A DNA stretch of 64,000 nt from Flavobacteriia bacterium 40-80. Its GTDB lineage: Bacteria > Bacteroidota > Bacteroidia > Flavobacteriales_D > Crocinitomicaceae. Under the pieces are notes generated by a model, which had not been told where the DNA came from, did not search any database, and worked only from the letters and a program-made list of their open reading frames with translations. The stretch covers positions 1 through 64,000 of the forward strand of contig MKVF01000017.1 of the NCBI GenBank assembly GCA_001899145.1. Reading direction: 5' to 3'. The position numbers and the translations under genes were made by a program. Below, in pieces: positions 15,487 through 28,653 of this stretch (its first letter is position 1; the number at the start of each line of letters is the position of its first letter).

Positions 15487-18400
15487 ATGAGTGCATATAG
15501 AATTCTGTTGTTTATCTCTTTTCTTACGCTGACCAATGTTTGGGGACAAAATATAAAAGAAACGAGGACAAAAAATAATGAACTTTTAAAGAAAAACATT
15601 CCTTCTGAATATACAAGACATTCTGATTATGGGAAATATTCTCTGGATATTCCCCAAAGCAATGTGGAGCTGATTCAGTACCGGAAAGAAGATGAACGTC
15701 TGTTTTTAGATGCAGAAGGCAATTATTACCTGCAAAAAACAGCAGGAAAATACCATTATCGCAACAATATGGGAGAGCTGAAGACAATTCAGAGAATACC
15801 TTCCAAGATGGGGAAAGATTTTGGGATCTTTGAAACAGAGCTTCCTCTGAATGTGAATCTTTCCGATGCGGTAACTTCCATCAGCATCAACAACCTGAGA
15901 AATAAAGTTGTTTTTGGAAAGTCAACCATTCTGAAAGAAATCGCAGCGAACGGTACAATTGTTAAGCAGGAAAACCTGAAAGTAAGCAACTACTCAACAG
16001 AGGGGCAAACGCTAACATTTAAAAACGTATTTACAGCTGTTGACAGAGTTCAGACTGTAGAATATGATCGGATTCAAACAAATTTCGTCTTGAACTCAAG
16101 ACCATTATTAGGCGCTAATACGGAATTCCTGATCCTTGAAGAAGTATATGAGCTTCCTTCCGGATGGAGTATTGTTACACCACAGAATGCAAATTCATCA
16201 AAAGCATATCAGGGCGAATTATTGATAATGAACGAAGTAGGAAACCAGGTTTCCTCTATTTCCAAAGCGCTCATATATGATGCAAATCCGGTAGTGGATA
16301 ACTCGAACACAGGAAATGCGTTTGTTGCAGATTATTCATTTGAAAATATCGGAGCTAACCAGTACCGCGTGTCTATAAAAATACCCGCTAAATGGTTATT
16401 GAACGGTCAGAGAAAGTTCCCGGTTACCATTGATCCTACATTGAGTAATAATTATGCGGGTAATTTAGGTATTGAAGATAGAAACACACAATTCAGTGCC
16501 GGGTGTCAGACGCAGTTGAATATTGTTCTCCCGGGAGGAAATTCGCAGGTAGTGACAAATACAAATGCAAGATATACGATCATTGCAAAAGGAGAGATCG
16601 CCGTATCGGGATCTACTACTTATTATGCGGAAGGGCCTGAGCAACGTTCCAGAATAGGGGTCGGGGCAGGTCCTACCTGGCACGCTACTCAGACAGGAAC
16701 AGGTCCACAGCAGTCGGCACCTTATGATGTAAATTATAACTATAATTCTAACATTGCAAACACTTGTTATCCACCCGGAAGCACGCTCACTTATACTTTT
16801 CAAGGTTACCAGACTTATTTTCCTCAAACAGCGACAGGAACTACTAATGTTGCTGGATGTGTTACAAATTATCAGGAGCTGAAAACAAATACACTTGAAA
16901 TTACGGTAACATTCAATGATTTTACATTGAATACGACTTCGGTAGGCTTTTCAAGTATAACAGCTACAGGACCTGCCAATCCAACCTGTAATGACTGGTC
17001 AGCAACATGGTGCGCCGGTTCAGGAACCAACACCTCTTTGTACCTTCATGAAGGAGTAAACTATACCGTAGAAAATGTCGGAGGAACAGCTTGTAGTGGT
17101 TCACCAATGCCTGCAGCATATATTCAGGCCTGGTCCCCAAGTGGCTCTTCCTGTAATATGGATCCTATCGGAGCTCCCGGAACAAATACTTATTCTTTCA
17201 ATGCCGGTCCTCCGTTTGGTGCGGCAGGTTCCGCCGTACTACATTATGTAACTGTTTCTTCCGGTAATTGTAACGCCGCAGCTAATTATTGTGGTGGTTA
17301 CACCGGACATGATTATACAGGGCAGTCGGCAGTGTTGAGATATCGTCAGAATACAGGAGTAAACAATACGACCTCTAATACGGGAATGTGTATCAACGGA
17401 ACCCGTCAGCTGACAGCAAATCTGACAGGTACTCATAACAATCCTACGGTCAGATGGTCAGTAGTTTCAGGTCCGGGTACTATCAACGGGACAACATTGA
17501 CAGCTACGGGAGCAGGAACAATTGTGGTAAGAGCTACGATCGGCTTCTGTAACAGCGATGTTTCTATTGTTGTAGAACCGGTTCCAACCATTGTTGTGAA
17601 TGTCACCAATGCCACGTGTAATGGTTATTCCAATGGAACGGCAACAGCAAATGTCACCCCGACGACAGGAACTTATACTTATGTATGGCAGGGAAATCCC
17701 TCAACAACGAATACGGTGACAAATTATGCCGCCGGAAACTATTCCGTCACGGTTACAAGCGCGGGAGGATGCGCTGCCAGCCAGACATTTACAATTACCG
17801 AACCTCCGGGCATGACACTCCAGACATCTTCGACACAGGCAACCTGTGGATTGAGTAATGGTAGCGCCAGCGTTGCTGTAACAGGAGGAACAGGTACATA
17901 CAGCTATCAATGGACGCCGGGAGGATATAACACAAGCACAATTACGAATGTTGCGGGAGGTTTATATACGGTTGTTGTTACAGATGCTAACGGATGTACA
18001 GCCACTGAATATGCGGCTGTAAATAATAATATGGATTTGACGATTGCTTTTACAGCATCTAATGTTCTTTGTCACGGAGAAAGTAACGGATCCGTTTCAG
18101 CGACAATATCCGGCGGAGCGCCACCTTATCAGACAGGTTGGGTTCCTACCATGACAACAGGAAATTCCTTAACGAACATACGTGCCGGACAATATGTATT
18201 CACTGTTACCGATAACGACGGATGCTTTATGTCTGACACGATTATTATAACAGAACCTGCTCCGTTAGCTGCCGGATTCCAGACAGTTAATGTCGGCTGT
18301 CCGAATAACTACGGACAGATCACGGCAAATGTCGGAGGAGGAACGCAGCCTTATGTATATATCTGGAATAATGGCCAATATACCGGTCAGACAGTTTCAA

Positions 18401-19011
18401 ATCTTCCTGTCGGAGGATATGAATTCAAAGTTCAGGATGCTAACGGATGCATTTTAATAGACTCTGTATATTTACACCAGACAGGCGGACTTAACATTTC
18501 GGTTTCACCGGCATCAGCTACTGTTGATGAAGGAAACTCTATCGTGCTGAATGCTACTATTTCACCGTATGAACCGGGAGTTGTTTACAGCTGGTCGCCA
18601 AGCCAGACATTATCCTGCAGTGATTGTCCTAATCCAACGGCGTCGCCTGTAGAAGATACCGACTATATGGTAGTAATAACTACTCCTAACGGATGTAAAG
18701 ACACAGCTATCGCTGTTATTAAATGGAACATATTCTGCGGAGAAACATTTATCCCTAATATTTTCTCACCAAACGGAGACGGAGAGAACGATGTCTTCAA
18801 AGTGTACGGAAGATGTGTGAAAAACGGAACATTGAGAATTTTCAACCGTTGGGGAGAAGTGATGTTTATGACGACAGATCTGACTCAGGGATGGGATGGA
18901 ACTCACAAAGGGAAACCTTGCAATACCGGTGTTTATACTTTCTACTTTGACGGAACAAACTCGAATGGAGAAGTTAAATCAATGTCCGGTTCGGTTACAT
19001 TAGTCAGATAG
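15487..19011 (+). CDS. SprB-repeat surface protein with gliding-type (CHU_C) T9SS sorting domain
   Basis: A 1174-residue secreted protein; signal peptide about 1-20 ('LTLTNVWGQ'). Residues 1-315 form an N-terminal globular part without a recognised domain. Residues 330-690 are Thr/Gly/Asn-rich. From about 699 there are at least four SprB-like modules of about 75 residues, each with a Cys-containing opening ('NATCNGYSNGTATANV', 'QATCGLSNGSASV', 'NVLCHGESNGSVSATI', 'NVGCPNNYGQITANV') and a 'TVTDANGC'-like close. An Ig-like domain follows. The last 90 residues ('FIPNIFSPNGDGENDVFKV', 'RIFNRWGEVMF', 'GVYTFYFDG') form the CHU_C T9SS sorting domain. It is probably a cell-surface adhesin or matrix protein. 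Confidence 0.9.
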   Translation: MSAYRILLFISFLTLTNVWGQNIKETRTKNNELLKKNIPSEYTRHSDYGKYSLDIPQSNVELIQYRKEDERLFLDAEGNYYLQKTAGKYHYRNNMGELKTIQRIPSKMGKDFGIFETELPLNVNLSDAVTSISINNLRNKVVFGKSTILKEIAANGTIVKQENLKVSNYSTEGQTLTFKNVFTAVDRVQTVEYDRIQTNFVLNSRPLLGANTEFLILEEVYELPSGWSIVTPQNANSSKAYQGELLIMNEVGNQVSSISKALIYDANPVVDNSNTGNAFVADYSFENIGANQYRVSIKIPAKWLLNGQRKFPVTIDPTLSNNYAGNLGIEDRNTQFSAGCQTQLNIVLPGGNSQVVTNTNARYTIIAKGEIAVSGSTTYYAEGPEQRSRIGVGAGPTWHATQTGTGPQQSAPYDVNYNYNSNIANTCYPPGSTLTYTFQGYQTYFPQTATGTTNVAGCVTNYQELKTNTLEITVTFNDFTLNTTSVGFSSITATGPANPTCNDWSATWCAGSGTNTSLYLHEGVNYTVENVGGTACSGSPMPAAYIQAWSPSGSSCNMDPIGAPGTNTYSFNAGPPFGAAGSAVLHYVTVSSGNCNAAANYCGGYTGHDYTGQSAVLRYRQNTGVNNTTSNTGMCINGTRQLTANLTGTHNNPTVRWSVVSGPGTINGTTLTATGAGTIVVRATIGFCNSDVSIVVEPVPTIVVNVTNATCNGYSNGTATANVTPTTGTYTYVWQGNPSTTNTVTNYAAGNYSVTVTSAGGCAASQTFTITEPPGMTLQTSSTQATCGLSNGSASVAVTGGTGTYSYQWTPGGYNTSTITNVAGGLYTVVVTDANGCTATEYAAVNNNMDLTIAFTASNVLCHGESNGSVSATISGGAPPYQTGWVPTMTTGNSLTNIRAGQYVFTVTDNDGCFMSDTIIITEPAPLAAGFQTVNVGCPNNYGQITANVGGGTQPYVYIWNNGQYTGQTVSNLPVGGYEFKVQDANGCILIDSVYLHQTGGLNISVSPASATVDEGNSIVLNATISPYEPGVVYSWSPSQTLSCSDCPNPTASPVEDTDYMVVITTPNGCKDTAIAVIKWNIFCGETFIPNIFSPNGDGENDVFKVYGRCVKNGTLRIFNRWGEVMFMTTDLTQGWDGTHKGKPCNTGVYTFYFDGTNSNGEVKSMSGSVTLVR

Positions 19012-19031
19012 TTATATAATCAGATATTTGA

Positions 19032-19066
19032 AAAGGCCGGCATTTTTATTAAGCCGGCCTTTTTTG
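19032..19066 (+). terminator. Rho-independent terminator after the SprB-repeat gene
   Basis: The stem AAGGCCGGC / GCCGGCCTT around an AT-rich loop, followed by Ts. Confidence 0.9.
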
Positions 19067-19101
19067 TTATTTTTAGGCGCATTGAAAATTCAGCTTGGTG
19101 A

Positions 19102-19752
19102 ATGTCAGTATTAGATATTTTTTTACTTCTGCCCCTTTGCTATGGAGCATACAAGGGATATAAATCGGGATTAATTGTTCAGATAGCAACGTTTGCTTCT
19201 TTATTTTTAGGAATTTATGTAGCTATCCGGTTTTCAGATATTGTTTCCGATTGGCTGGTTAAATCCTATGAGATGGAGCCAGGCTCAATGCTTCCTTTTA
19301 TTGCTTTTTTTCTTACGTTTATCGCCGTTGCAGTAGGTGTTTATTTTTTAGGAAAGATCCTCAAAACAATGCTCAAGGCGACTTTACTTTCTCCTTTTGA
19401 TAAGTTTGGCGGGCTCGGTATCGGATTATTAAAATACCTGTACATTGTGGGGATATTGATTGTGTTTTTCGAAACAATGAATGAACGGAAACATATTGCT
19501 TCCGATGAAACATTCGATCAGTCACTGTTGTATCATCCGATTTTAAAAACAACCGTTTATACTGTTCCTGCTCTGGAAGAAAGCTCTCTTTTTCTTAAAA
19601 ATCAGCTGTTCAACGATTCGAGCGAATTGAACTTGAAATTAGATCAGGCAAGAAGAGCAAAGGAAATTGCCGACAGTTTAGGGGTTGATGCGGAAGATGC
19701 GGATAAAATTGTTGAAATCTATAAAGAGTATCGCTTAGATACCATTCAATGA
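19102..19752 (+). CDS. CvpA family inner-membrane protein
   Basis: A 216-residue membrane protein of the CvpA/colicin V production family. 'DIFLLLPLCYGAYKGYKSGL' opens the first helix, the family's typical start, and three further helices lie at about 25-45, 65-85 and 105-125. The C-terminal 80 residues are soluble and helical. The family's role in Bacteroidota is poorly defined; elsewhere CvpA affects purine-biosynthesis expression, bile tolerance and envelope stress. It overlaps the following flavoprotein gene by four bases (ATGA), implying coupled translation. Confidence 0.88.
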   Translation: MSVLDIFLLLPLCYGAYKGYKSGLIVQIATFASLFLGIYVAIRFSDIVSDWLVKSYEMEPGSMLPFIAFFLTFIAVAVGVYFLGKILKTMLKATLLSPFDKFGGLGIGLLKYLYIVGILIVFFETMNERKHIASDETFDQSLLYHPILKTTVYTVPALEESSLFLKNQLFNDSSELNLKLDQARRAKEIADSLGVDAEDADKIVEIYKEYRLDTIQ

Positions 19753-20912
19753 AAACAATTCACATTATCGGAATGGGGCCGGCAGGATTGATGGCCGGGA
19801 CGGAATTGTTGAAACGGGGATTCCGGGTGAACTTTTATGATCATAAAAATGTGCCTGCCAGAAAATTTCTTGTTGCCGGGCATGGAGGCTTCAACCTGAC
19901 AAATGCAGATACTCTGGCAGATTTTGTGGATCAGTACGATTCGGAGCTGATCAGGAATGCTGTGAGACAATTTACCAATGAAGACCTGATTGGTTTTCTG
20001 GTAGATATTGGAATTCCCACGTATAAAGGCACTTCAGGAAAAATTTTTCCTGAAAAGCATATTAAGCCGATAACAGTCTTAAATAAATGGCTGGATTATA
20101 TTCGTTCTTTCGGGAACGTGCTCTTCCATTTCGAACATAAATTGACAGGCTTTGATGAAGATGGGCTGGTTTTTGAACATCAGGGAACAGAAAAGCGTAT
20201 TTCTAAAGATAATGGTGTCATTTTCGCGCTGGGAGGTGGCTCGTGGGCTAAAACAGGTTCGACAGGTGAATGGCTTTCCCTGTTTGAGTCGAACGGAATT
20301 TCTGTCCGGTCGTTTGCATCAAGTAATGCCGGAATGGAAACCGGATTTCCTGATTTCCTGAAAAAATACGAAGGAAGCACCATTAAAAACGCGCTTTTTA
20401 AACTGGGAGCAAAGTCCAGGGCCGGAGAAGTAGTTATTACCGGATATGGGCTCGAAGGAGCCCCGGTTTATTACCTGAACGGAGAATACAGAGCGGGTAA
20501 CAGACAATTATTCATTGATTTTAAACCAGCTTTTGAGGTAGAGAAAATCCGGTCAGTGCTGGAAAATTCAAAGAATGTAACGGAAGGGTTGAAACAATTA
20601 AAGCTTCCTCATTTTTTGATAGATTACCTGAAATCAGAATTGACAAAAGAGCAGTTTTTATCGCTTGAATTTCTTGCCCGTAAAATCAAAAATGTGAGCT
20701 TTGAAATACGTTCGTTACGGTCGGTGGAAGAAAGCATTTCAACTGTCGGAGGAATCTTGCTTTCCTCTGTAAATGCTGATTTTTCACTTAAAAAATATCC
20801 CCGGTTTTATACAATAGGCGAAATGCTTGACTGGGACGCTCCAACCGGTGGTTATTTACTCCAGGCGTGCTTTTCCATGGGAATTGTCGCCGGAAGGGCT
20901 GTTGAGAAATAG
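19749..20912 (+). CDS. TIGR03862-type FAD-dependent flavoprotein (HI0933/BaiN-like)
   Basis: A 387-residue FAD-binding oxidoreductase. The N-terminal dinucleotide fold is 'IHIIGMGPAGLMAGTELLKR', followed by 'ARKFLVAGHGGFNLTNAD', the family's FAD-pyrophosphate stretch. Later come 'FALGGGSWAKTGSTG' and C-terminal 'FYTIGEMLDWDAPTGGYLLQ', typical of the HI0933-like superfamily. The reaction is unknown for this branch; relatives include BaiN and other putative NAD(P)H-dependent flavoproteins. It is co-translated with cvpA. Confidence 0.88.
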   Translation: MKTIHIIGMGPAGLMAGTELLKRGFRVNFYDHKNVPARKFLVAGHGGFNLTNADTLADFVDQYDSELIRNAVRQFTNEDLIGFLVDIGIPTYKGTSGKIFPEKHIKPITVLNKWLDYIRSFGNVLFHFEHKLTGFDEDGLVFEHQGTEKRISKDNGVIFALGGGSWAKTGSTGEWLSLFESNGISVRSFASSNAGMETGFPDFLKKYEGSTIKNALFKLGAKSRAGEVVITGYGLEGAPVYYLNGEYRAGNRQLFIDFKPAFEVEKIRSVLENSKNVTEGLKQLKLPHFLIDYLKSELTKEQFLSLEFLARKIKNVSFEIRSLRSVEESISTVGGILLSSVNADFSLKKYPRFYTIGEMLDWDAPTGGYLLQACFSMGIVAGRAVEK

Positions 20913-20943
20913 TACAGTCAGATTATGCCGATTGATTTTCCAG

Positions 20944-22032
20944 TTAGTGAGACATACTCGGTATAGACAGCTTTTCCAACAGATAAAAATACGCTTCATA
21001 GGAATGATGTACCATCATATTCAGATCCGAATCGGGAAAACGGCGATCGTAAGTTTCGTCGAACTGGTTCAGAATGATCGGCGTACCGCAGCGTGTGTAA
21101 TTCATATTGTTGCTGTACGTTGGTTTCGGAAAATCTTTTAATTCTTTGTTGACAAACTTATAAACGGTGCTTCCAAGTATTTTGATAAAGTTTTTTCGGG
21201 CTTTCTTTGGTGGTTTGTCCAGTTTGTTATACAAGCTCTTCAAGACCATCTTACGAAATAGTGGTTGTTTTTTGATCATTAATTTCATAACCTTAAAGCC
21301 ATTCACTTTATTGAAATCGTCTGTTGTCTGGATGGAAAAAGGGGCTTCCGGAACCCAGTCTCTGGAATTTAAGATAGTGTAAGACCAATTCAGATGCGCT
21401 GCTTCGAAATCGTAGGAATAATATAAATTTCCGACTTTTGGCTGTGCGCTGCAATAAGATTTGAAAACAATATCAGACGGAAGCCTCCCGTCTTTTTGCT
21501 TGTAATAAATCAAAGAATGGATCAGATTGGCCAATGCTCCGCCCTGGCTGTGCCCGATGATAAAGAAATTTTTCATTCCTTTCTGATAACAGGAATCAAT
21601 CGTTGGGAGAATATTCTCCAGTAGTAAAATAGCGCCCAGGCTCCAGCCGACATGCGTGGTTGCCATCTCATTCTCTGCAAATTGATAAGAAATGGTTTTC
21701 TGGGAGTCAATTACCAGATTGCCTTTGGCAGGAATCATCGCGGCATAAAAATTTCCGATCCAGCTCGGACCCGCAACAGAAGCTCTTAGCGATATAACGC
21801 CCGTATCGCCTTTGGCCCAGAACTCCCATTTGTTCTGTAAGCCGAATTCAGATGAAGCGTATATGCGTTCATATCCGTCCGGATAAGGGATTGTTTTGGC
21901 ATATTCCGGTTCGGAATTATGAGCCGTCAACTGGAGCAGCTCAAGATATTCCTGCTTATCAAATCCGGGTTTAAGCTGTGATAAAGCAACATTGCAGGTG
22001 ATCAGAGATAAGAAAAGTAAAATTCTATTCAT
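20944..22032 (-). CDS. Secreted class 3-type lipase
   Basis: A 362-residue alpha/beta-hydrolase with a signal peptide ending at about residue 19 ('CNVALSQ'). The nucleophile elbow is 'FFIIGHSQGGALANLIH' with Ser162, the pattern of the fungal-type lipase_3 family. 'SYCSAQPKVGNLYYSYDFE' and 'SYTILNSRDWVP' follow and carry the expected catalytic Asp neighbourhood. A His near the C-terminus ('MMVHHSYEAYFYLL') is a candidate for the triad. It probably hydrolyses esters or lipids in the periplasm or outside the cell. Its start overlaps the end of the permease gene by 8 bp, so it is likely the third gene of the rbfA-permease-lipase run. Confidence 0.83.
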   Translation of the reverse strand: MNRILLFLSLITCNVALSQLKPGFDKQEYLELLQLTAHNSEPEYAKTIPYPDGYERIYASSEFGLQNKWEFWAKGDTGVISLRASVAGPSWIGNFYAAMIPAKGNLVIDSQKTISYQFAENEMATTHVGWSLGAILLLENILPTIDSCYQKGMKNFFIIGHSQGGALANLIHSLIYYKQKDGRLPSDIVFKSYCSAQPKVGNLYYSYDFEAAHLNWSYTILNSRDWVPEAPFSIQTTDDFNKVNGFKVMKLMIKKQPLFRKMVLKSLYNKLDKPPKKARKNFIKILGSTVYKFVNKELKDFPKPTYSNNMNYTRCGTPIILNQFDETYDRRFPDSDLNMMVHHSYEAYFYLLEKLSIPSMSH

Positions 22033-23242
22033 GGCGTTTTAGTTTTTTTAAAAGGTATTTTACAGGTATGTAAGTTGCCATCATTGAAAGTGATGAAACG
22101 ATCACAAGAATAAGAATTCCATCCGAAAAATTTATCTGAATAGGGAAAATATCGTTGTTGGCATTCGGAATTCTGATAATGCCTCCCCATAACTGTAGAA
22201 GGCAGATACTGTACCCGATAACGAGTCCTGCTGCAATTCCTTTAAAAGCGATCATTAAACCATTGAAAAAGAAAATGTAGAAAATATTTTTTTTGGTAGC
22301 TCCGAAACTAAGCAGTGTAAAAATATCCTTTTTCTTTTCCAGCATGCTCATAATGATTGCTGTCATTAAATTAAATGCGGAGATAATAAATACAAAAATC
22401 AGGATCCCTATGACGATGATTTTCTCTGTCCTGGAAGTTTTATAAATCAGCTCATTTTTTTCGAATTGTGTTTTTACGACCCACTTACTGCCCAGTGTTT
22501 GCTGAAGAGCTTCTCTGACTTTACTGATCTTTCTCTCTTCAGGGACATGAACGTAAATACAGCTGATGTCGTCACCATACTCCAGCTGTTCCTGAGCAAA
22601 TTCCAATGGCAGGACAACAGATTCATGATTCACATCTTTGTTGAAATTAAAAGAAGCGGACAGCCTTACAAATTCGCTGTTAAACGGAGATGAGCCGATG
22701 CTCATTTTAGCTTCGCGGAGAGGAAAATACAGCTCCAGGTACTCATAATCATCTTTTTCATCATGAACATACGCCTGGAGTTTTTCTAAAAGCCCTGCGC
22801 CGGCGATTGCAAACGGAATTTTTCCTTTCGTGAGATATGCTTCACCTTCCACCAGGTGATTTTTCATATCGGACATCAGCAGGAAAGAATTTTCCACCCC
22901 GTAAAGATTGGCATTCAGCCATTTTTGCTCATGCTTAATAACCACTATTTCTTCAATAGCTTTTGAATAGCTGGAAATATCCCGGTTCTTTAGCTTTCCG
23001 TATGGAAATTCTTTCTGATCAAACGTTTTTCCATTTGCCGACCGGATCGTAATGGTAGCGTCAAAATCACTGTAAAGCTGCTTTACCATGTACTCAATAC
23101 CATTGAAAGCACTGAGCAGGATCACAAGCGAAGCGGTGGAAATTAAAATGCCGATTACCGAAATACGGGTAATGATCTGAATAATATTTTTGCGTTTTTT
23201 CTGCTTAAAATAACGCTTCGCTATGTAAAACGGGAGATTGAT
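22025..23242 (-). CDS. LolC/FtsX-type ABC transporter permease, non-canonical start
   Basis: An inner-membrane permease of the MacB/FtsX superfamily, about 405 residues. The first helix lies near residues 25-45 ('ISVIGILISTASLVILLSAF'), then a periplasmic domain of about 200 residues, then three C-terminal helices ('IIVIGILIFVFIISAFNLMT' onward), the LolC/E layout. The conserved N-terminus 'NLPFYIAKRYF' lies upstream of the first possible GTG (23125) and is read in frame, but no ATG, GTG or TTG precedes it. The best placed codon is ATC at 23242, immediately after the rbfA stop, which would give MNLPFYIAKRYF. ABC transporters of this kind act in lipoprotein or lipid trafficking. The GTG at 23125 lies inside the first helix. 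Confidence 0.8.
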   Translation of the reverse strand: MNLPFYIAKRYFKQKKRKNIIQIITRISVIGILISTASLVILLSAFNGIEYMVKQLYSDFDATITIRSANGKTFDQKEFPYGKLKNRDISSYSKAIEEIVVIKHEQKWLNANLYGVENSFLLMSDMKNHLVEGEAYLTKGKIPFAIAGAGLLEKLQAYVHDEKDDYEYLELYFPLREAKMSIGSSPFNSEFVRLSASFNFNKDVNHESVVLPLEFAQEQLEYGDDISCIYVHVPEERKISKVREALQQTLGSKWVVKTQFEKNELIYKTSRTEKIIVIGILIFVFIISAFNLMTAIIMSMLEKKKDIFTLLSFGATKKNIFYIFFFNGLMIAFKGIAAGLVIGYSICLLQLWGGIIRIPNANNDIFPIQINFSDGILILVIVSSLSMMATYIPVKYLLKKLKRHE

Positions 23243-23244
23243 GA

Positions 23245-23586
23245 TTATTTATCTTTTAGTAAACGATCTATTTCCATAGCATAGTCCAGAGAGTCGTCAA
23301 TACGGAATTGCAGCTCAGGGATTTTCCGGAGATTTTTTAGCTCTTTTCCTACTTCAAAACGAATACGGCTGACATTTTCATTAATGTGATCCAGTACTTT
23401 CAGGCGATTTTCTTTTGTAGAAAGAATACTTACAAAAATACGTGCCATTGACAGGTCTGCTGTTACACGGACAACAGTTACCGTTACTAATGCGCCCAGA
23501 CAAATGTCGGACATGTTTTTTTGTAAATAGCTGCCAACTGCTTTTTGTATAACACCTTCAATTTTACTTTGTCTAATACTTCCCAT
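23245..23586 (-). CDS. rbfA: Ribosome-binding factor A
   Basis: A 113-residue KH-like protein needed for maturation of the 30S subunit and 16S rRNA 5' end. The conserved 'RQSKIEGVIQKAVGSYL', 'VTVTVVRVTADLSMARIFVS' and 'LRKIPELQFRIDDSLDYAMEID' identify it. The start is at 23586. A TAATTTTG box on the same strand (23598-23591) lies only a few bases before it. The stop codon abuts the downstream permease gene. Confidence 0.94.
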   Translation of the reverse strand: MGSIRQSKIEGVIQKAVGSYLQKNMSDICLGALVTVTVVRVTADLSMARIFVSILSTKENRLKVLDHINENVSRIRFEVGKELKNLRKIPELQFRIDDSLDYAMEIDRLLKDK

Positions 23587-23651
23587 ACTACAAAATTAAA
23601 GAAAACAACTTTAATAACCCGCTAATAAACTTCCTTGTTCCCCAAATATTT

Positions 23652-23659
23652 TAAATTTG
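23652..23659 (+). promoter_or_regulatory. Promoter -7 box for the MsbA-like exporter
   Basis: TAAATTTG matches TAnnTTTG seven bases before the ATG. If used, the 5' leader is very short or absent. The divergent rbfA has a similarly close box (23591-23598 on the minus strand). Confidence 0.4.
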
Positions 23660-23666
23660 TCAGATT

Positions 23667-25499
23667 ATGAAGGAAGTTTTACAAATTTACAGATATACTT
23701 TCACCTACATCTGGAGCTGTGTGCTGGTGATTTTTTTTAATTTTCTGTACGTTATCTTTAACCTGCTTTCACTGGTTTTATTTATTCCTTTTCTGAGAGT
23801 TATTTTTCCTTCCGGAGAAGCTGAACAGGCGCAGCTGATAAAACCGGATTTCCACGGAGGCCTTTTTGATTTTTTCAACTATGTAAAAGATTACTATCAA
23901 TACTGGATGGAATCCATGGCCAGGGAGAATGCGGTCAATGCACTGTGGTTTGTTTGCTTAACAGTACTGGCAGCATTCTTTTTGAAAAATGTTTTCAGGT
24001 ATCTTGCTATTTTTTTCCAGTCTTATGTGAGGATGGCAGTCGTAAGAGATATCCGTTTGCAGCTGTTTGAGAAAGCGGTAAAGCTGCCTTTATCCTATTA
24101 CACGAGTGAAAGAAAAGGAGACCTGATGACGCGGATGAACAATGACGTGAATGAAATTGAAGTTGCGGTAATTTCCTTATTTGACCTGTTTTACAGAGAC
24201 CCGGTTGCGATTATAATCAATATTGCAACATTGATCTATTTTAGTCCGCAGCTCACACTTATTTCTTTCGTGCTGCTTCCCGTTTCCGCTTTTTTTATTT
24301 CCAGGATAGGCAAGAGCTTAAAGAGAACGGCAAAAAAGAGTCAGGAAGAAATGGCGACATTATTTTCGAATATTGAAGAAAATATCAGTGCGATGCGCAT
24401 TATTAAAGCATTTAATGCGATGGATTTTGTGACCGCAAAATTTAAAAAAATTAACCTGTGGCACCAGCAGCTGGTAACAAGAACATTCAGAAAAAAAGAC
24501 CTTACTTCGCCACTGAATGAATTTCTGGGAGCGGCAGTAATGATAAGCCTGGTGTGGTTCGGAGGAAAAATGATTGTTGAGGGAACGGCAGAGATGACAG
24601 GAGAAACATTCCTGGGGTTTATCATTGTATTCTCTCAACTGCTTGTCCCTATTCAGAGCGTGGCCAATTCTGTGACTTATCTTAATAAAGCAAAAGTCTC
24701 AATGGATAGGATCAACGAGGTATTGAATAGTGATGAAAAGATTCTGGAGAACGATCAGCCATTGGTGATCAATGAGCTGAAAGATAAAATTGCCTATGAG
24801 AATGTTTCTTTTAAATACCAGGATGCTTATGTTTTAAATAACCTGAGCTTTTCTGTGCGGAAAGGAACTGTGGTAGCATTAGTGGGAGAGTCGGGGAGTG
24901 GAAAATCTACTGTTGCGGATTTACTGCCGCGGTTTTATGATGTGACGGAAGGCAGAATTACTATTGACGGAACGGATATCAGGAATTTTTCTTTGAAATC
25001 TCTTAGAGATCAGATCGCGATTGTTTCGCAGGAATCCATTCTCTTTAATGATACTGTAAAAAACAATATTTTATTCGGGCGTCCTGATGCGACAGAGGAA
25101 GAGGTGATGCAGGCGGCAAGAATAGCGAATGCCAGTGATTTCATCGAAAAAATGGAAAACGGCTATGAAACCATGATCGGCGAACGCGGTGGAAAATTGT
25201 CGGGCGGACAGCGCCAGCGGATCAATATTGCACGCGCGGTTCTGAAAAATGCTCCGATTTTAATCCTGGATGAAGCTACTTCTGCATTGGATATTGAAAG
25301 TGAGAGACAGGTACAGCAGGCATTGGAAGAGCTGATGAAGAATAAAACGTCTATTGTTATTGCTCACAGATTAAGCACTATAAGGAATGCAGATCAGATT
25401 ATAGTCATGAGTAAAGGGAAAATTGTGGAGACAGGCACACATGAAGAATTACTGATGTTAAAAGGAACTTATTTTAAGCTTTTTTCGCTCCAATTCTGA
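23667..25499 (+). CDS. MsbA-like ABC exporter (ATPase fused to permease)
   Basis: A 610-residue ABC exporter half-transporter with a transmembrane domain (about 1-350, six helices) and a C-terminal ATPase. Walker A 'GESGSGKSTVADLL' is near residue 406, the Q-loop at 'AIVSQESILFND', the signature 'KLSGGQRQRI' near 511, Walker B 'ILILDEATSALD', and the H-loop 'IAHRLSTI'. The family exports lipids, lipopolysaccharide cores or drugs. The lipid A flippase MsbA is the closest well-known type, but the substrate cannot be fixed from sequence. It is divergent from rbfA. Confidence 0.92.
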   Translation: MKEVLQIYRYTFTYIWSCVLVIFFNFLYVIFNLLSLVLFIPFLRVIFPSGEAEQAQLIKPDFHGGLFDFFNYVKDYYQYWMESMARENAVNALWFVCLTVLAAFFLKNVFRYLAIFFQSYVRMAVVRDIRLQLFEKAVKLPLSYYTSERKGDLMTRMNNDVNEIEVAVISLFDLFYRDPVAIIINIATLIYFSPQLTLISFVLLPVSAFFISRIGKSLKRTAKKSQEEMATLFSNIEENISAMRIIKAFNAMDFVTAKFKKINLWHQQLVTRTFRKKDLTSPLNEFLGAAVMISLVWFGGKMIVEGTAEMTGETFLGFIIVFSQLLVPIQSVANSVTYLNKAKVSMDRINEVLNSDEKILENDQPLVINELKDKIAYENVSFKYQDAYVLNNLSFSVRKGTVVALVGESGSGKSTVADLLPRFYDVTEGRITIDGTDIRNFSLKSLRDQIAIVSQESILFNDTVKNNILFGRPDATEEEVMQAARIANASDFIEKMENGYETMIGERGGKLSGGQRQRINIARAVLKNAPILILDEATSALDIESERQVQQALEELMKNKTSIVIAHRLSTIRNADQIIVMSKGKIVETGTHEELLMLKGTYFKLFSLQF

Positions 25500-25520
25500 C
25501 CGTTATATATATTTTGGTTG

Positions 25521-25528
25521 TATTTTTG
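25521..25528 (+). promoter_or_regulatory. Promoter -7 box for the choice-of-anchor-L gene
   Basis: TATTTTTG matches TAnnTTTG, 42 bases before the GTG start. Confidence 0.45.
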
Positions 25529-25570
25529 ATATGCAACAACTTTCGTCCAATTTATACGTCTAAGCAATAG

Positions 25571-27976
25571 GTGAGAAAAGTATTATTCATATTAAGCATA
25601 TTGCCATCGTTTTTGATGGCACAGTTAGTGACTACGACAAATCAGTCACCTTCCCAGCTTGTCCAGAATGTTTTATTGGGACAGGGCGTGGATGTCATGA
25701 ATATAACTTTTTCCGGCGCTTCACAGTCGATAGGATATTTCAACGGAACAAATACAACGCTGGGTTTTTCGGAAGGGATTCTGATTACTACCGGAACGGT
25801 GCAAAATGTTGCAAATGGCCCGCATGGTCCTAACGACCGGGATAATGCTACGATCAATAACAATGCAGGCGGCTATAATCGCCTTTCGCAGCTTGTCGGA
25901 GGAACACAAACCTACAATGCAGCCGTCTTAGAGTTTGATTTCATACCATATTCAGATACGGTAACGTTTCGTTATATATTTGGTTCAGAAGAATACCGGG
26001 AATATGTAAATACAGAATTCAATGATGTATTCGCATTCTTCATTTCGGGGCCGGGATATACCGGATACCAGAATATTGCCACACTTCCGAATAATACACC
26101 TGTGACAATTAACAACATTAATGATGGCTATATTAATAACGGGCAGTACGTCCCTCAGTGCAATAATTGCCAGTATTATGTCCATAATGGAAACGGAAGC
26201 CAGTCACCTTATAATGTCAATCCGAAATATATTCAATACGACGGATTTACGAAACCCTTAGAAGCTGTTGCTAAAGTGCAATGCGGTAAAAAGTACCATT
26301 TAATTATTGCAATTGCGGATGTAAATGACCCACAATATGACTCCGGGATCTTTCTGGAAGCAAACAGTTTGAAGTCAAGTGTCGTGGCGAATGTTGACTA
26401 CTCATTGTCTTTTGATGCGTTCGGGGACAATGTAACCATGTCAGAAGGCTGTGTTACCGCAAATTTTGTTATTTCCCGTCCTGCGGACAAAGCAAGCCAG
26501 GCACTGACTATTCCGATTACCATCGGAGGAACGGCGACAATGGGTGTAGATTATAATACGATTCCTTCAAGCATTACGCTCAATCCCGGAGAAACCCAAA
26601 AAACATTTTCCATTCAGTCAATACAGGACTTTATCAGCGAAGGAACAGAAACGATTGAATTGATTTTCGGAATTCCGGATGCCTGCGAAAATATTATCGA
26701 GAAGAAGATCGAACTGAAAATCGTAGATGTGGAAGAATTACAGCTAACTATTTCAGGAGCAGATAAAACATGCCCTGATCAGGAAGTTGTTTTGACAGCT
26801 CTTCCCGTTGGAGGATCCGGTCCTTATCAGTATCAGTGGAGTACGGGAGCTACGACCAGCTCCATATCAGTATCGCCGCAGAGTACAACGACTTACAGCG
26901 TGACAGTGACAGAAGGTTGTCAGAATGATCAGGCTACGGCAAGTTATACTGTAAATGTAGTTACTTATATTCCGATGACTTTATTTCCCTCTGCAGATGT
27001 TGTGGAAGCATGCCGTAACAAGGAAACGGATTTGAACATTGATTTTATAAACGGCTCCCCGGATTATGAAATAACATGGAAAGATGCGGAAGGAAAGAGT
27101 ATCGGCTATGATTCGATTTTGACCGTATCACCTTGGGAAAGCACTTATTTCACAGTTACAATCAAGGACGGCTGCGGTTTTGAGTACGACACAATTATTA
27201 ACTATACGATCATTACTCCGCCTTTAATGGTTGATTCCATTCAACCGGTACGGACATGTCCGGGAAAAGAGATTCAGTTTACAGTGAATTCTTCCGGCGG
27301 TATGGGACAACATTATTACAGATGGAGCAACGGGGCAAATACACGTTCTATTATTGTCACTCCGACATCTACGATTGTCTATACCGTTACTGTCTCTGAT
27401 GAGTGCCAGACTTATTTTGTAAGTGTACCGGCAAAAGTTATTGTTGAAGTTCCCGTGGCGGATTTTAAAGTAGTTAATTACCCTTTGACGCAAGGCCTGC
27501 CAGTGATATTTCATAACACTTCCACACCTAATTCTGTCGCTTTTGACTGGGATTTCGGAGACTCTCTGAATCCGGTGAACTCGACAGTTAAAAACCCTGT
27601 TCATACTTATGAAGAACCGGGCGGTTATGTGATCCGCCTGATTGTTACTTCTGATCTGGGATGTACGGATACGGTTTATAAAGCAATTGAAGTAATGCCG
27701 GAATTTTATGTATATGTTCCGAACGCGTTCACTCCGAACGGAGATCGCCATAATCAGGATTTTAAAGCGAGCACGGTTAATATTGTTGAATTTAAGATCA
27801 GACTTTATAATCGCTGGGGAGAAATGATCTTTGAAAGCGATGATACTGATTTTAGCTGGGACGGTACTTATAAAGGAATGATGGTGCCGGATGATGTCTA
27901 TGTCTGGGTGATTGATTATACGTCTGTTACAGGCTATCAGGATCGCCTTACCGGACACGTCACAGTGATACGATAA
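25571..27976 (+). CDS. Choice-of-anchor-L surface protein with Calx-beta, PKD and CHU_C sorting domain
   Basis: An 801-residue secreted protein starting at GTG, which gives a clean signal peptide (MRKVLFILSILPSFLMAQ). The choice-of-anchor-L domain (about 25-270) has 'VQNVLLGQGVDVMNITFSGA', 'TFRYIFGSEEYREYVNTEFN', 'DVFAFFISGPG' and 'YHLIIAIADVNDPQYDSGIF'. A Calx-beta domain follows (about 275-390: 'TMGVDYNTIPSSITLNPGET'), then Ig-like modules, a PKD domain ('FDWDFGDSLNP'), and the CHU_C T9SS domain ('VYVPNAFTPNGDRHNQDF', 'RLYNRWGEMIF'). It is probably surface-attached. A paralogue lies at 42978. Confidence 0.91.
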   Translation: MRKVLFILSILPSFLMAQLVTTTNQSPSQLVQNVLLGQGVDVMNITFSGASQSIGYFNGTNTTLGFSEGILITTGTVQNVANGPHGPNDRDNATINNNAGGYNRLSQLVGGTQTYNAAVLEFDFIPYSDTVTFRYIFGSEEYREYVNTEFNDVFAFFISGPGYTGYQNIATLPNNTPVTINNINDGYINNGQYVPQCNNCQYYVHNGNGSQSPYNVNPKYIQYDGFTKPLEAVAKVQCGKKYHLIIAIADVNDPQYDSGIFLEANSLKSSVVANVDYSLSFDAFGDNVTMSEGCVTANFVISRPADKASQALTIPITIGGTATMGVDYNTIPSSITLNPGETQKTFSIQSIQDFISEGTETIELIFGIPDACENIIEKKIELKIVDVEELQLTISGADKTCPDQEVVLTALPVGGSGPYQYQWSTGATTSSISVSPQSTTTYSVTVTEGCQNDQATASYTVNVVTYIPMTLFPSADVVEACRNKETDLNIDFINGSPDYEITWKDAEGKSIGYDSILTVSPWESTYFTVTIKDGCGFEYDTIINYTIITPPLMVDSIQPVRTCPGKEIQFTVNSSGGMGQHYYRWSNGANTRSIIVTPTSTIVYTVTVSDECQTYFVSVPAKVIVEVPVADFKVVNYPLTQGLPVIFHNTSTPNSVAFDWDFGDSLNPVNSTVKNPVHTYEEPGGYVIRLIVTSDLGCTDTVYKAIEVMPEFYVYVPNAFTPNGDRHNQDFKASTVNIVEFKIRLYNRWGEMIFESDDTDFSWDGTYKGMMVPDDVYVWVIDYTSVTGYQDRLTGHVTVIR

Positions 27977-27987
27977 AAACATAATTT

Positions 27988-28653
27988 ATGGCATTTCTCT
28001 CAAAAGCTTATTTTGATTTTTTTGATGAGCTGGAATCTAACAATAACAAAGAATGGTTTGACGCTCACCGTGCGGAATATGAGAACAATGTAAAGCAACC
28101 TTTTAAAGAGCTGACAACTTTCCTGATCGAGGAAATTTCCCGGTTTGATGATACTGTCACACGTGATGTGTCAAAATGTATTTTCAGGATCAATAAAGAC
28201 GTTCGTTTTTCAAAAGATAAATCTCCTTACAAGCTGAACATGGCTGCAGTATTTGGTGAAAACGGAAAGAAAACGGAGAAACCAAGCTATTATATACATA
28301 TCGGAAATAAGGAATTGTTTATTGGCGGAGGAATGTATGCCGTTTCAAAAGAAGACCTGAACAAGATCCGTCAGGAAATATTCTATAATTCCGGTGAATT
28401 CACTGCTGTCTTAAATAAAGCTGAATTCAAAAAATATTTTGGAGAGATCCAGGGAGAAAAGAACAAAATAGTGCCGGAAGAATACCGTGAGTTTTTAAAA
28501 AAGCAACCTTATATTGCCAATAAGCAATTTTACACGGGAGCGGTTTTCTCGAGAGAAGAAGTGGTAGCAGAAGGTTTTGAACAAAAAGTGATCGACTGCT
28601 TTAAAGCGGTAAAGCCACTGAATGACTTTTTGCTGGAAGCCATTTTAGATTAA
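27988..28653 (+). CDS. DUF2461 (TIGR02453) family protein
   Basis: A 221-residue soluble protein of a family with no settled function. Family hallmarks: 'FFDELESNNNKEWFDAHRAE', 'CIFRINKDVRFSKDKSPYK', 'SYYIHIGNKELFIGGGMY', and C-terminal 'QFYTGAVFSREE'. It starts 11 bp after the preceding surface-protein gene and converges on the AsmA gene with an 8-bp gap and no terminator visible. Confidence 0.9.
   Translation: MAFLSKAYFDFFDELESNNNKEWFDAHRAEYENNVKQPFKELTTFLIEEISRFDDTVTRDVSKCIFRINKDVRFSKDKSPYKLNMAAVFGENGKKTEKPSYYIHIGNKELFIGGGMYAVSKEDLNKIRQEIFYNSGEFTAVLNKAEFKKYFGEIQGEKNKIVPEEYREFLKKQPYIANKQFYTGAVFSREEVVAEGFEQKVIDCFKAVKPLNDFLLEAILD

Follow-up and report, generated by a model that had tools for sequence, protein, structure and literature searches.

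Based on the comparison with related sequences, the lolF/lolC-like permease gene in the window very likely starts at an ATC codon (23240..23242, minus strand) or at a neighbouring ATT, ATC or ATA codon. The window is the whole stretch of 64,000 nucleotides analysed here (positions 1 to 64,000 of contig MKVF01000017.1 from Flavobacteriia bacterium 40-80, Crocinitomicaceae). Below, ATT, ATC and ATA are collectively written as ATH (AUH in the mRNA), and ATG, GTG and TTG are called canonical. Judging by the aligned codons, the ATH start is spread well beyond the window, to most sampled family members.

We suggest the following course of initiation. Translation of the permease would start at codon 1, where the initiator tRNA would recognise ATC-23242 as a near-cognate codon. 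Ribosomes would be guided to the site by the adjacent rbfA end and by A-rich sequence around -13 to -11, a Shine-Dalgarno (SD) sequence would play no part, and IF3 would repress the near-cognate start. With AUU, AUC or AUA in most sampled Crocinitomicaceae, synthesis of this inner-membrane transporter is probably held low. To the reading as a whole (a near-cognate start at ATC-23242, weak synthesis, and help from the A-rich stretch and rbfA without an SD sequence) we assign a probability of about 0.78; initiation at this codon, the weakness of the start, selection for that weakness and repression by IF3 are the parts that we infer.

The permease gene and its reading frame

The permease gene (22025..23242, minus strand; stop codon 22027-22025) comprises 405 codons when read from ATC and was assigned by Pfam, NCBIfam, sequence and fold matches. 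The Pfam domains FtsX (PF02687) and MacB_PCD (PF12704) were found above the cut-off. The lolCE model TIGR02212 covers residues 3-393 with 158.6-159.4 bits, below its cut-off of 362.45, which was passed in only 2 of 14 control genomes. The permease is the best lolCE-type match of its genome; the only two further ones, of 69.0 and 60.3 bits, fall within a 674-residue open frame. This frame (G000:C17:81342-82967), matched by the lolCE model in two pieces (L367 and L368), is a second FtsX-type permease. The PDB sequence matches of the window's permease were LolE, LolF and LolC chains, its AlphaFold model had a mean pLDDT of 85.7, and the best PDB match in the fold search was a LolCDE chain (E 6.4e-23, TM 0.73).

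According to a review, LolDF is the common arrangement, Bacteroidetes have also retained Lol transporters, and lolF and lolD are placed in one operon (PMC11784454). No lolD was found beside the permease. The best match to lolD (C6:160535) lies on a different contig, which is evidence against a textbook lolF; it scores 264 bits, under the cut-off of 307.75. Near the permease, the lolD model hit just one gene, an ABC gene encoded on the opposite strand (24819-25427). The permease is thus similar to LolF, LolC and LolE in sequence and fold over nearly its whole length but differs from them by a score below the curated lolCE cut-off and by the lack of an adjoining lolD. We infer a LolF/LolC-like function for it.

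The last 8 bases of the permease gene (22025-22032) are shared with the beginning of the following ORF (20944-22032, lipase-like by eye), so the operon may continue past the permease. Upstream of the permease lies rbfA (23245..23586, minus strand; stop TAA 23247-23245), whose protein was matched in 188 of 200 same-family genomes.

On the minus strand, the permease frame reads TAA (23251-23249), ATA (23248-23246), ATC (23245-23243) and ATC-23242, followed by AAT CTC CCG TTT TAC ATA GCG AAG. Between the in-frame stop and GTG-23125 there is no ATG, GTG or TTG, and the ATC and ATA codons just named are the only other in-frame upstream candidates. The preliminary description of this DNA had reported a permease frame devoid of these three codons before GTG-23125; checked on the sequence, both its coordinates and its codon reading were right. 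Since the window has two more ATH codons just before codon 1, the exact start could be off by 1 or 2 codons.

The first canonical in-frame start, GTG (23123..23125, minus strand), is codon 40 and is probably unused. It falls inside the second of two helices that the AlphaFold model places at residues 3-12 and 18-55, with low model confidence over approximately the first 20 residues (49 for the first block of ten residues and 57 for the second). With helices at these positions, a start at codon 40 would delete the first helix and 22 of the 38 residues of the second.

The start codon across relatives

The codon aligned with ATC-23242 was read in 130 different Crocinitomicaceae-type sequences (profile score >395; the highest score outside the family was 376.7), sequences with identical first 300 bases being counted once. 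Many of the relatives compared are metagenome assemblies. Loci with a truncated permease match (e.g., L083) or a match starting after profile position 6 or 7 were left out, as was L311, a family member with ATA at codon 1 that scored below 395. The aligned codon was ATH in 96 of the 130 sequences (ATT 48, ATC 41, ATA 7) and canonical in 30 (ATG 12, GTG 10, TTG 8). The four remaining members, with ACA (2), CCA (1) and CTC (1), carry TTG or GTG at one of the two preceding codons. A smaller set of 89 different 5' ends gave ATT 38, ATC 34, ATG 7, ATA 4, TTG 3, GTG 2 and CCA 1. GTG immediately precedes codon 1 in 5 of the 96 ATH members. Rare initiation at ATC was one of the possibilities raised in the preliminary description, together with the proposal to align this codon in related species. 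The alignment gave ATT, ATC or ATA in most sampled family members and strongly supports that possibility.

Crocinitomicaceae-type permease genes were also seen in records titled Chitinophaga pinensis, Chryseobacterium gleum, Candidatus Kuenenia and Glaciecola amylolytica (L034, L035, L046, L095 and similar loci); these titles may be mislabelled.

Outside the family, none of 93 homologues (33 order-level and 60 class-level) begins with ATH; in the class-level locus L269 the aligned codon is ATT, but ATG stands three codons before it. The 33 order-level loci remained from 47 fetched, 14 having no permease beside rbfA. At class level (Bacteroidia, loci L223-L282, n=60), codon 1 is TTG in 22 cases, ATG in 21, GTG in 12 and another codon in 5, which indicates that weak starts are common for the permease gene. 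TTG and GTG together exceed ATG across these Bacteroidia (34 versus 21 of 60). By contrast, in 100 readable rbfA loci the canonical codon closest to residue 1 (at most 8 codons away) is ATG 99 times and GTG once; 45 further loci were cut.

The manner in which codon 1 varies was compared with that of ordinary isoleucine positions. In an alignment of 131 sequences, 31 of the 38 non-Ile codons at codon 1 are ATG, GTG or TTG, while in the other Ile columns these three codons make up 232 of 759 Val/Leu/Met replacements. Codon 1 therefore behaves as a start codon would. A chance control comprised the 194 ORFs with at least four homologues out of 306 ORFs in 80 loci. The first canonical start lay at least 10 codons past the median homology start in 63 of 77 permease ORFs and in 1 of 117 other ORFs; the single exception, L067 on the minus strand with a gap of 13, resembles a spurious frame. 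The 10-codon threshold replaced a looser control, in which any canonical start past the median homology start was counted and which selected 105 of the 194 ORFs, 42 of them not permease-like.

Two trees were used to follow the start codon. Tree 1 (60 family genomes and 9 outgroups, built without the first 12 residues) has two changes between ATH and canonical starts and one change of the infC start type. Tree 2 (130 sequences, simpler model, with long-branch warnings) has four changes between ATH and canonical starts, one change when ATG is set against ATH, and 26 third-base changes within ATH. Of the latter, 21 are T/C swaps, 5 are to or from A, and none involves G. Fourfold third bases are A in 29.8% and G in 20.5% of cases, so only about three changes to G would be expected beside five to A, and their absence could be due to chance alone (estimate ~0.07). 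These few events are suggestive, but no proof, of selection against AUG at the permease start, which we consider likely. The ATH state in the family may have a single origin. The genome of the window forms a long branch of unsure placement; if it lies outside the Brumimicrobium group, that group would represent a return to canonical starts.

Upstream context and alternative readings

Adenines at positions -3, -6, -12 and -13 raise translation in F. johnsoniae, as reported in PMC6847099, which describes Bacteroidetes as being without SD sequences. In the window, A is found at -15 to -12 (AAAA, 23254..23257, minus strand, within the rbfA end), at -6 and at -3, with G at -11. The AAAA stretch coincides with an A-rich position in relatives and with the positive signal in F. 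johnsoniae. The frequency of A at -13, -12 and -11 is 0.65, 0.83 and 0.87 in the 96 ATH members, compared with 0.40, 0.40 and 0.53 in the 30 family members with canonical starts. In part, this A-richness is the Lys-rich end of rbfA. Where the rbfA stop lies at least 13 bases upstream (21 of 90 ATH members), the frequencies are still 0.71, 0.81 and 0.86. Among the bases after such a distant stop, A accounts for 56 of 88 at -14 to -10 versus 163 of 600 elsewhere (Fisher p 4e-11, ignoring relatedness). The -3 and -6 signals are not strong at the permease start, as A reaches only 0.41 and 0.44 there.

SD-like matches in the last 20 bases were found in 5 of the 96 ATH members and 2 of the 30 canonical ones, and a strong or extended SD is not a feature of this set. 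RNA folding around the start is weak, with a mean of -6.3 kcal/mol over 95 sequences, compared with -10.4 kcal/mol for windows within the gene. No Rfam match at the gathering score was found in 18000-28000.

The junction with rbfA is variable. Of 145 loci from the family and the order, 48 have the rbfA stop in frame 2, 47 in frame 0 and 34 in frame 1; in the other 16, all outside the family, it is far away. Within the family it is mostly 2 to 15 bases upstream, with a range to -121, and in Fluviicola-like members it overlaps the permease start (ATTAA). Translational coupling to rbfA, as proposed in the preliminary description, may help permease initiation, but it would do so at no fixed stop distance and in no fixed frame.

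If such coupling makes the start codon nearly irrelevant, initiation at AUU or AUC could be real and ATH could have been kept by history and drift rather than by selection. The short distances, the overlap in Fluviicola-like members and the excess of T/C swaps over changes to or from A all agree with this proposal. However, ATH is kept even at rbfA stop distances of 42 to 121 bases (L081, L084, L090, L108 and L109), and a drifting start should have reached ATG, GTG or TTG more often than in four changes. We therefore regard drift as rather improbable.

Far less probable is a start at GTG-23125, the first in-frame canonical codon, with the conserved upstream stretch left untranslated. In the upstream stretch the amino acids are conserved although the codons differ, the predicted helix 18-55 would be cut, and relatives with ATG, GTG or TTG mostly have it at codon 1. 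The preliminary description had named relatives that really start at the later GTG as a refutation of its reading; the first downstream canonical codons of the relatives are scattered from 11 to 56 codons after the homology start.

A second conserved position within the gene is codon 7, ATA (23222..23224, minus strand), which ranks first of 155 columns in conservation at the synonymous level. Among 196 Bacteroidia permeases, 190 have Ile at this position, encoded by ATA in 163 versus 34.7 expected from each gene's own usage. In the 131-sequence set ATA is found in 121, against a share of 5-27% in 27 further columns of conserved Ile; the class set gave 33 of 51 versus 22%. The codon is kept alike in members with ATH and canonical starts. 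Several causes of this preference were considered. Replacement of ATA-7 by ATT or ATC shifts the computed folding energy by only -0.23 or -0.15 kcal/mol (90 sequences), so RNA structure offers no explanation. Codon-pair preference was also rejected, as ATA has a share of 18.1% when G follows and of 15.5% in the other Ile-Ala pairs. A third idea was a TAG in the +1 frame arising from ATA-G. If T is the first base of the following codon, no TAG is possible and ATA is still present in 3 of 6; this frame is moreover already closed by ATG, GTG or TTG followed by A. In the remaining sequences, those in which the next codon does not begin with T, a +1-frame TAG may still play a part. Codon 7 is thus under an unexplained synonymous constraint, for which our guess is an early rare-codon brake.

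This constraint, together with the ATA GCN found after an SD-like motif at infC of nine relatives (see below), might suggest that AUA at codon 7 is the true start and that codons 1-6 form a leader. We find this very unlikely: the residues encoded by codons 1-6 are conserved, codon 1 alternates between ATH and canonical codons, and the spacing of the A-rich stretch fits codon 1. Still less credible is an RbfA-permease fusion through frameshifting or stop readthrough, for which the adjacency and closeness of the two genes in the family would speak; the rbfA stop occurs in all three frames (48, 47 and 34 of 145 loci), which counts against a fusion, and in-frame stops separate the genes in many members, including the window. 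A single base change would yield ATG, but a sequencing or assembly error, also raised in the preliminary description, can be dismissed, since ATT, ATC or ATA stands at the aligned codon in 96 of 130 different family-type sequences.

Initiation factors and known near-cognate starts

An ARAGORN search (30 of 39 tRNA loci) gave nothing odd with respect to an unusual initiator tRNA. Three tRNAs have the anticodon CAT, and one of them, L362, we take to be initiator-like by its features.

The gene for IF3, infC, was matched in 59 of 60 genomes, 50 of which were comparable with the permease; infC starts were called by pattern. In 9 of the 50 genomes infC reads ATA GCN after an SD-like motif, and the permease there has ATG, GTG or TTG. 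In 38 genomes infC has ATG, and the permease is ATH in 28 of these. The permease is canonical in the three remaining genomes, with infC TTG in two and no start call in one. The infC ATA with the SD-like motif was seen in genera g5, g9, g12 and g20 (loci L193-L222 and L313-L332), and infC ATG without such a motif in most other Crocinitomicaceae read, including the genome of the window. Since the permease has AUH only in genomes with infC AUG and no SD-like motif, it may have become a reader of IF3 or initiation fidelity. This association is a lead rather than a test, because the infC starts were assigned by pattern and their distribution corresponds to one tree change. A comparison of IF3 for a loss of fidelity residues gave eleven differences between the clades, two of them at the N-terminus; in this comparison the genome without an infC start call (G004) was counted with the ATG genomes.

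To our knowledge, conserved near-cognate starts have been described for few bacterial genes. The inefficient AUU start of pcnB in E. coli reportedly limits its expression; the AUU start proposed for many of the permeases would be similar, in another gene and another phylum. As in other conserved non-canonical starts, the permease has no canonical codon at its conserved N-terminus, and the near-cognate codon is kept across species while other relatives have canonical ones. For start-codon switches in 36 genome triplets, a change to AUU is reported for 1 of 61,358 AUG and 1 of 5,080 GUG starts (PMC5622118).

PMC5472188 gives ATT as the infC start of E. coli and ATC as that of Streptomyces, and states that E. 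coli IF3 lowers its own synthesis. Like the permease, infC has a near-cognate AUU, AUA or AUC start, in several phyla. The permease, however, is a transporter gene mostly without an SD-like motif, and infC of the window's own genome reads ATG. In S. aureus, infC and ccpN (AUA) and cvfC1 (AUU) have starts with an extended SD, and the conserved non-canonical starts of ccpN and cvfC1 lower expression in reporters, according to PMC13009471. Their starts are directed by extended SD pairing, whereas the permease has an A-rich stretch in a lineage without SD. The start of sigR in Streptomyces, GTC in 32 of 34 species and GTT in 2, is described as IF3-repressed (PMC5472188). It is kept across a genus as that of the permease is across a family, but it is preceded by a conserved AGGAGGTG, and codon, gene and phylum differ. 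The near-cognate or non-canonical starts of ccpN and cvfC1 (PMC13009471) and of sigR (PMC5472188) are thus presented in these sources with a strong SD. A literature search, which left most subscription journals outside its reach, gave no title on this permease gene or family among those listed, and no paper on Crocinitomicaceae and start codons.

On the available sequences, the best reading is that the permease start is a conserved near-cognate start of the infC, ccpN and sigR kind, but one without SD help. A broader proposal would combine selection against an AUG start in a gene that probably serves lipoprotein export, an A-rich element replacing SD for near-cognate starts, the permease as a reader of IF3 or initiation fidelity, and AUA-7, into a two-point throttle on lipoprotein export; we consider this combination doubtful.

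A family-wide AUU, AUC or AUA start without SD would make the contributions of the A-rich element, rbfA coupling and IF3 testable. Furthermore, gene finders restricted to ATG, GTG and TTG would misplace the permease start in many Crocinitomicaceae.
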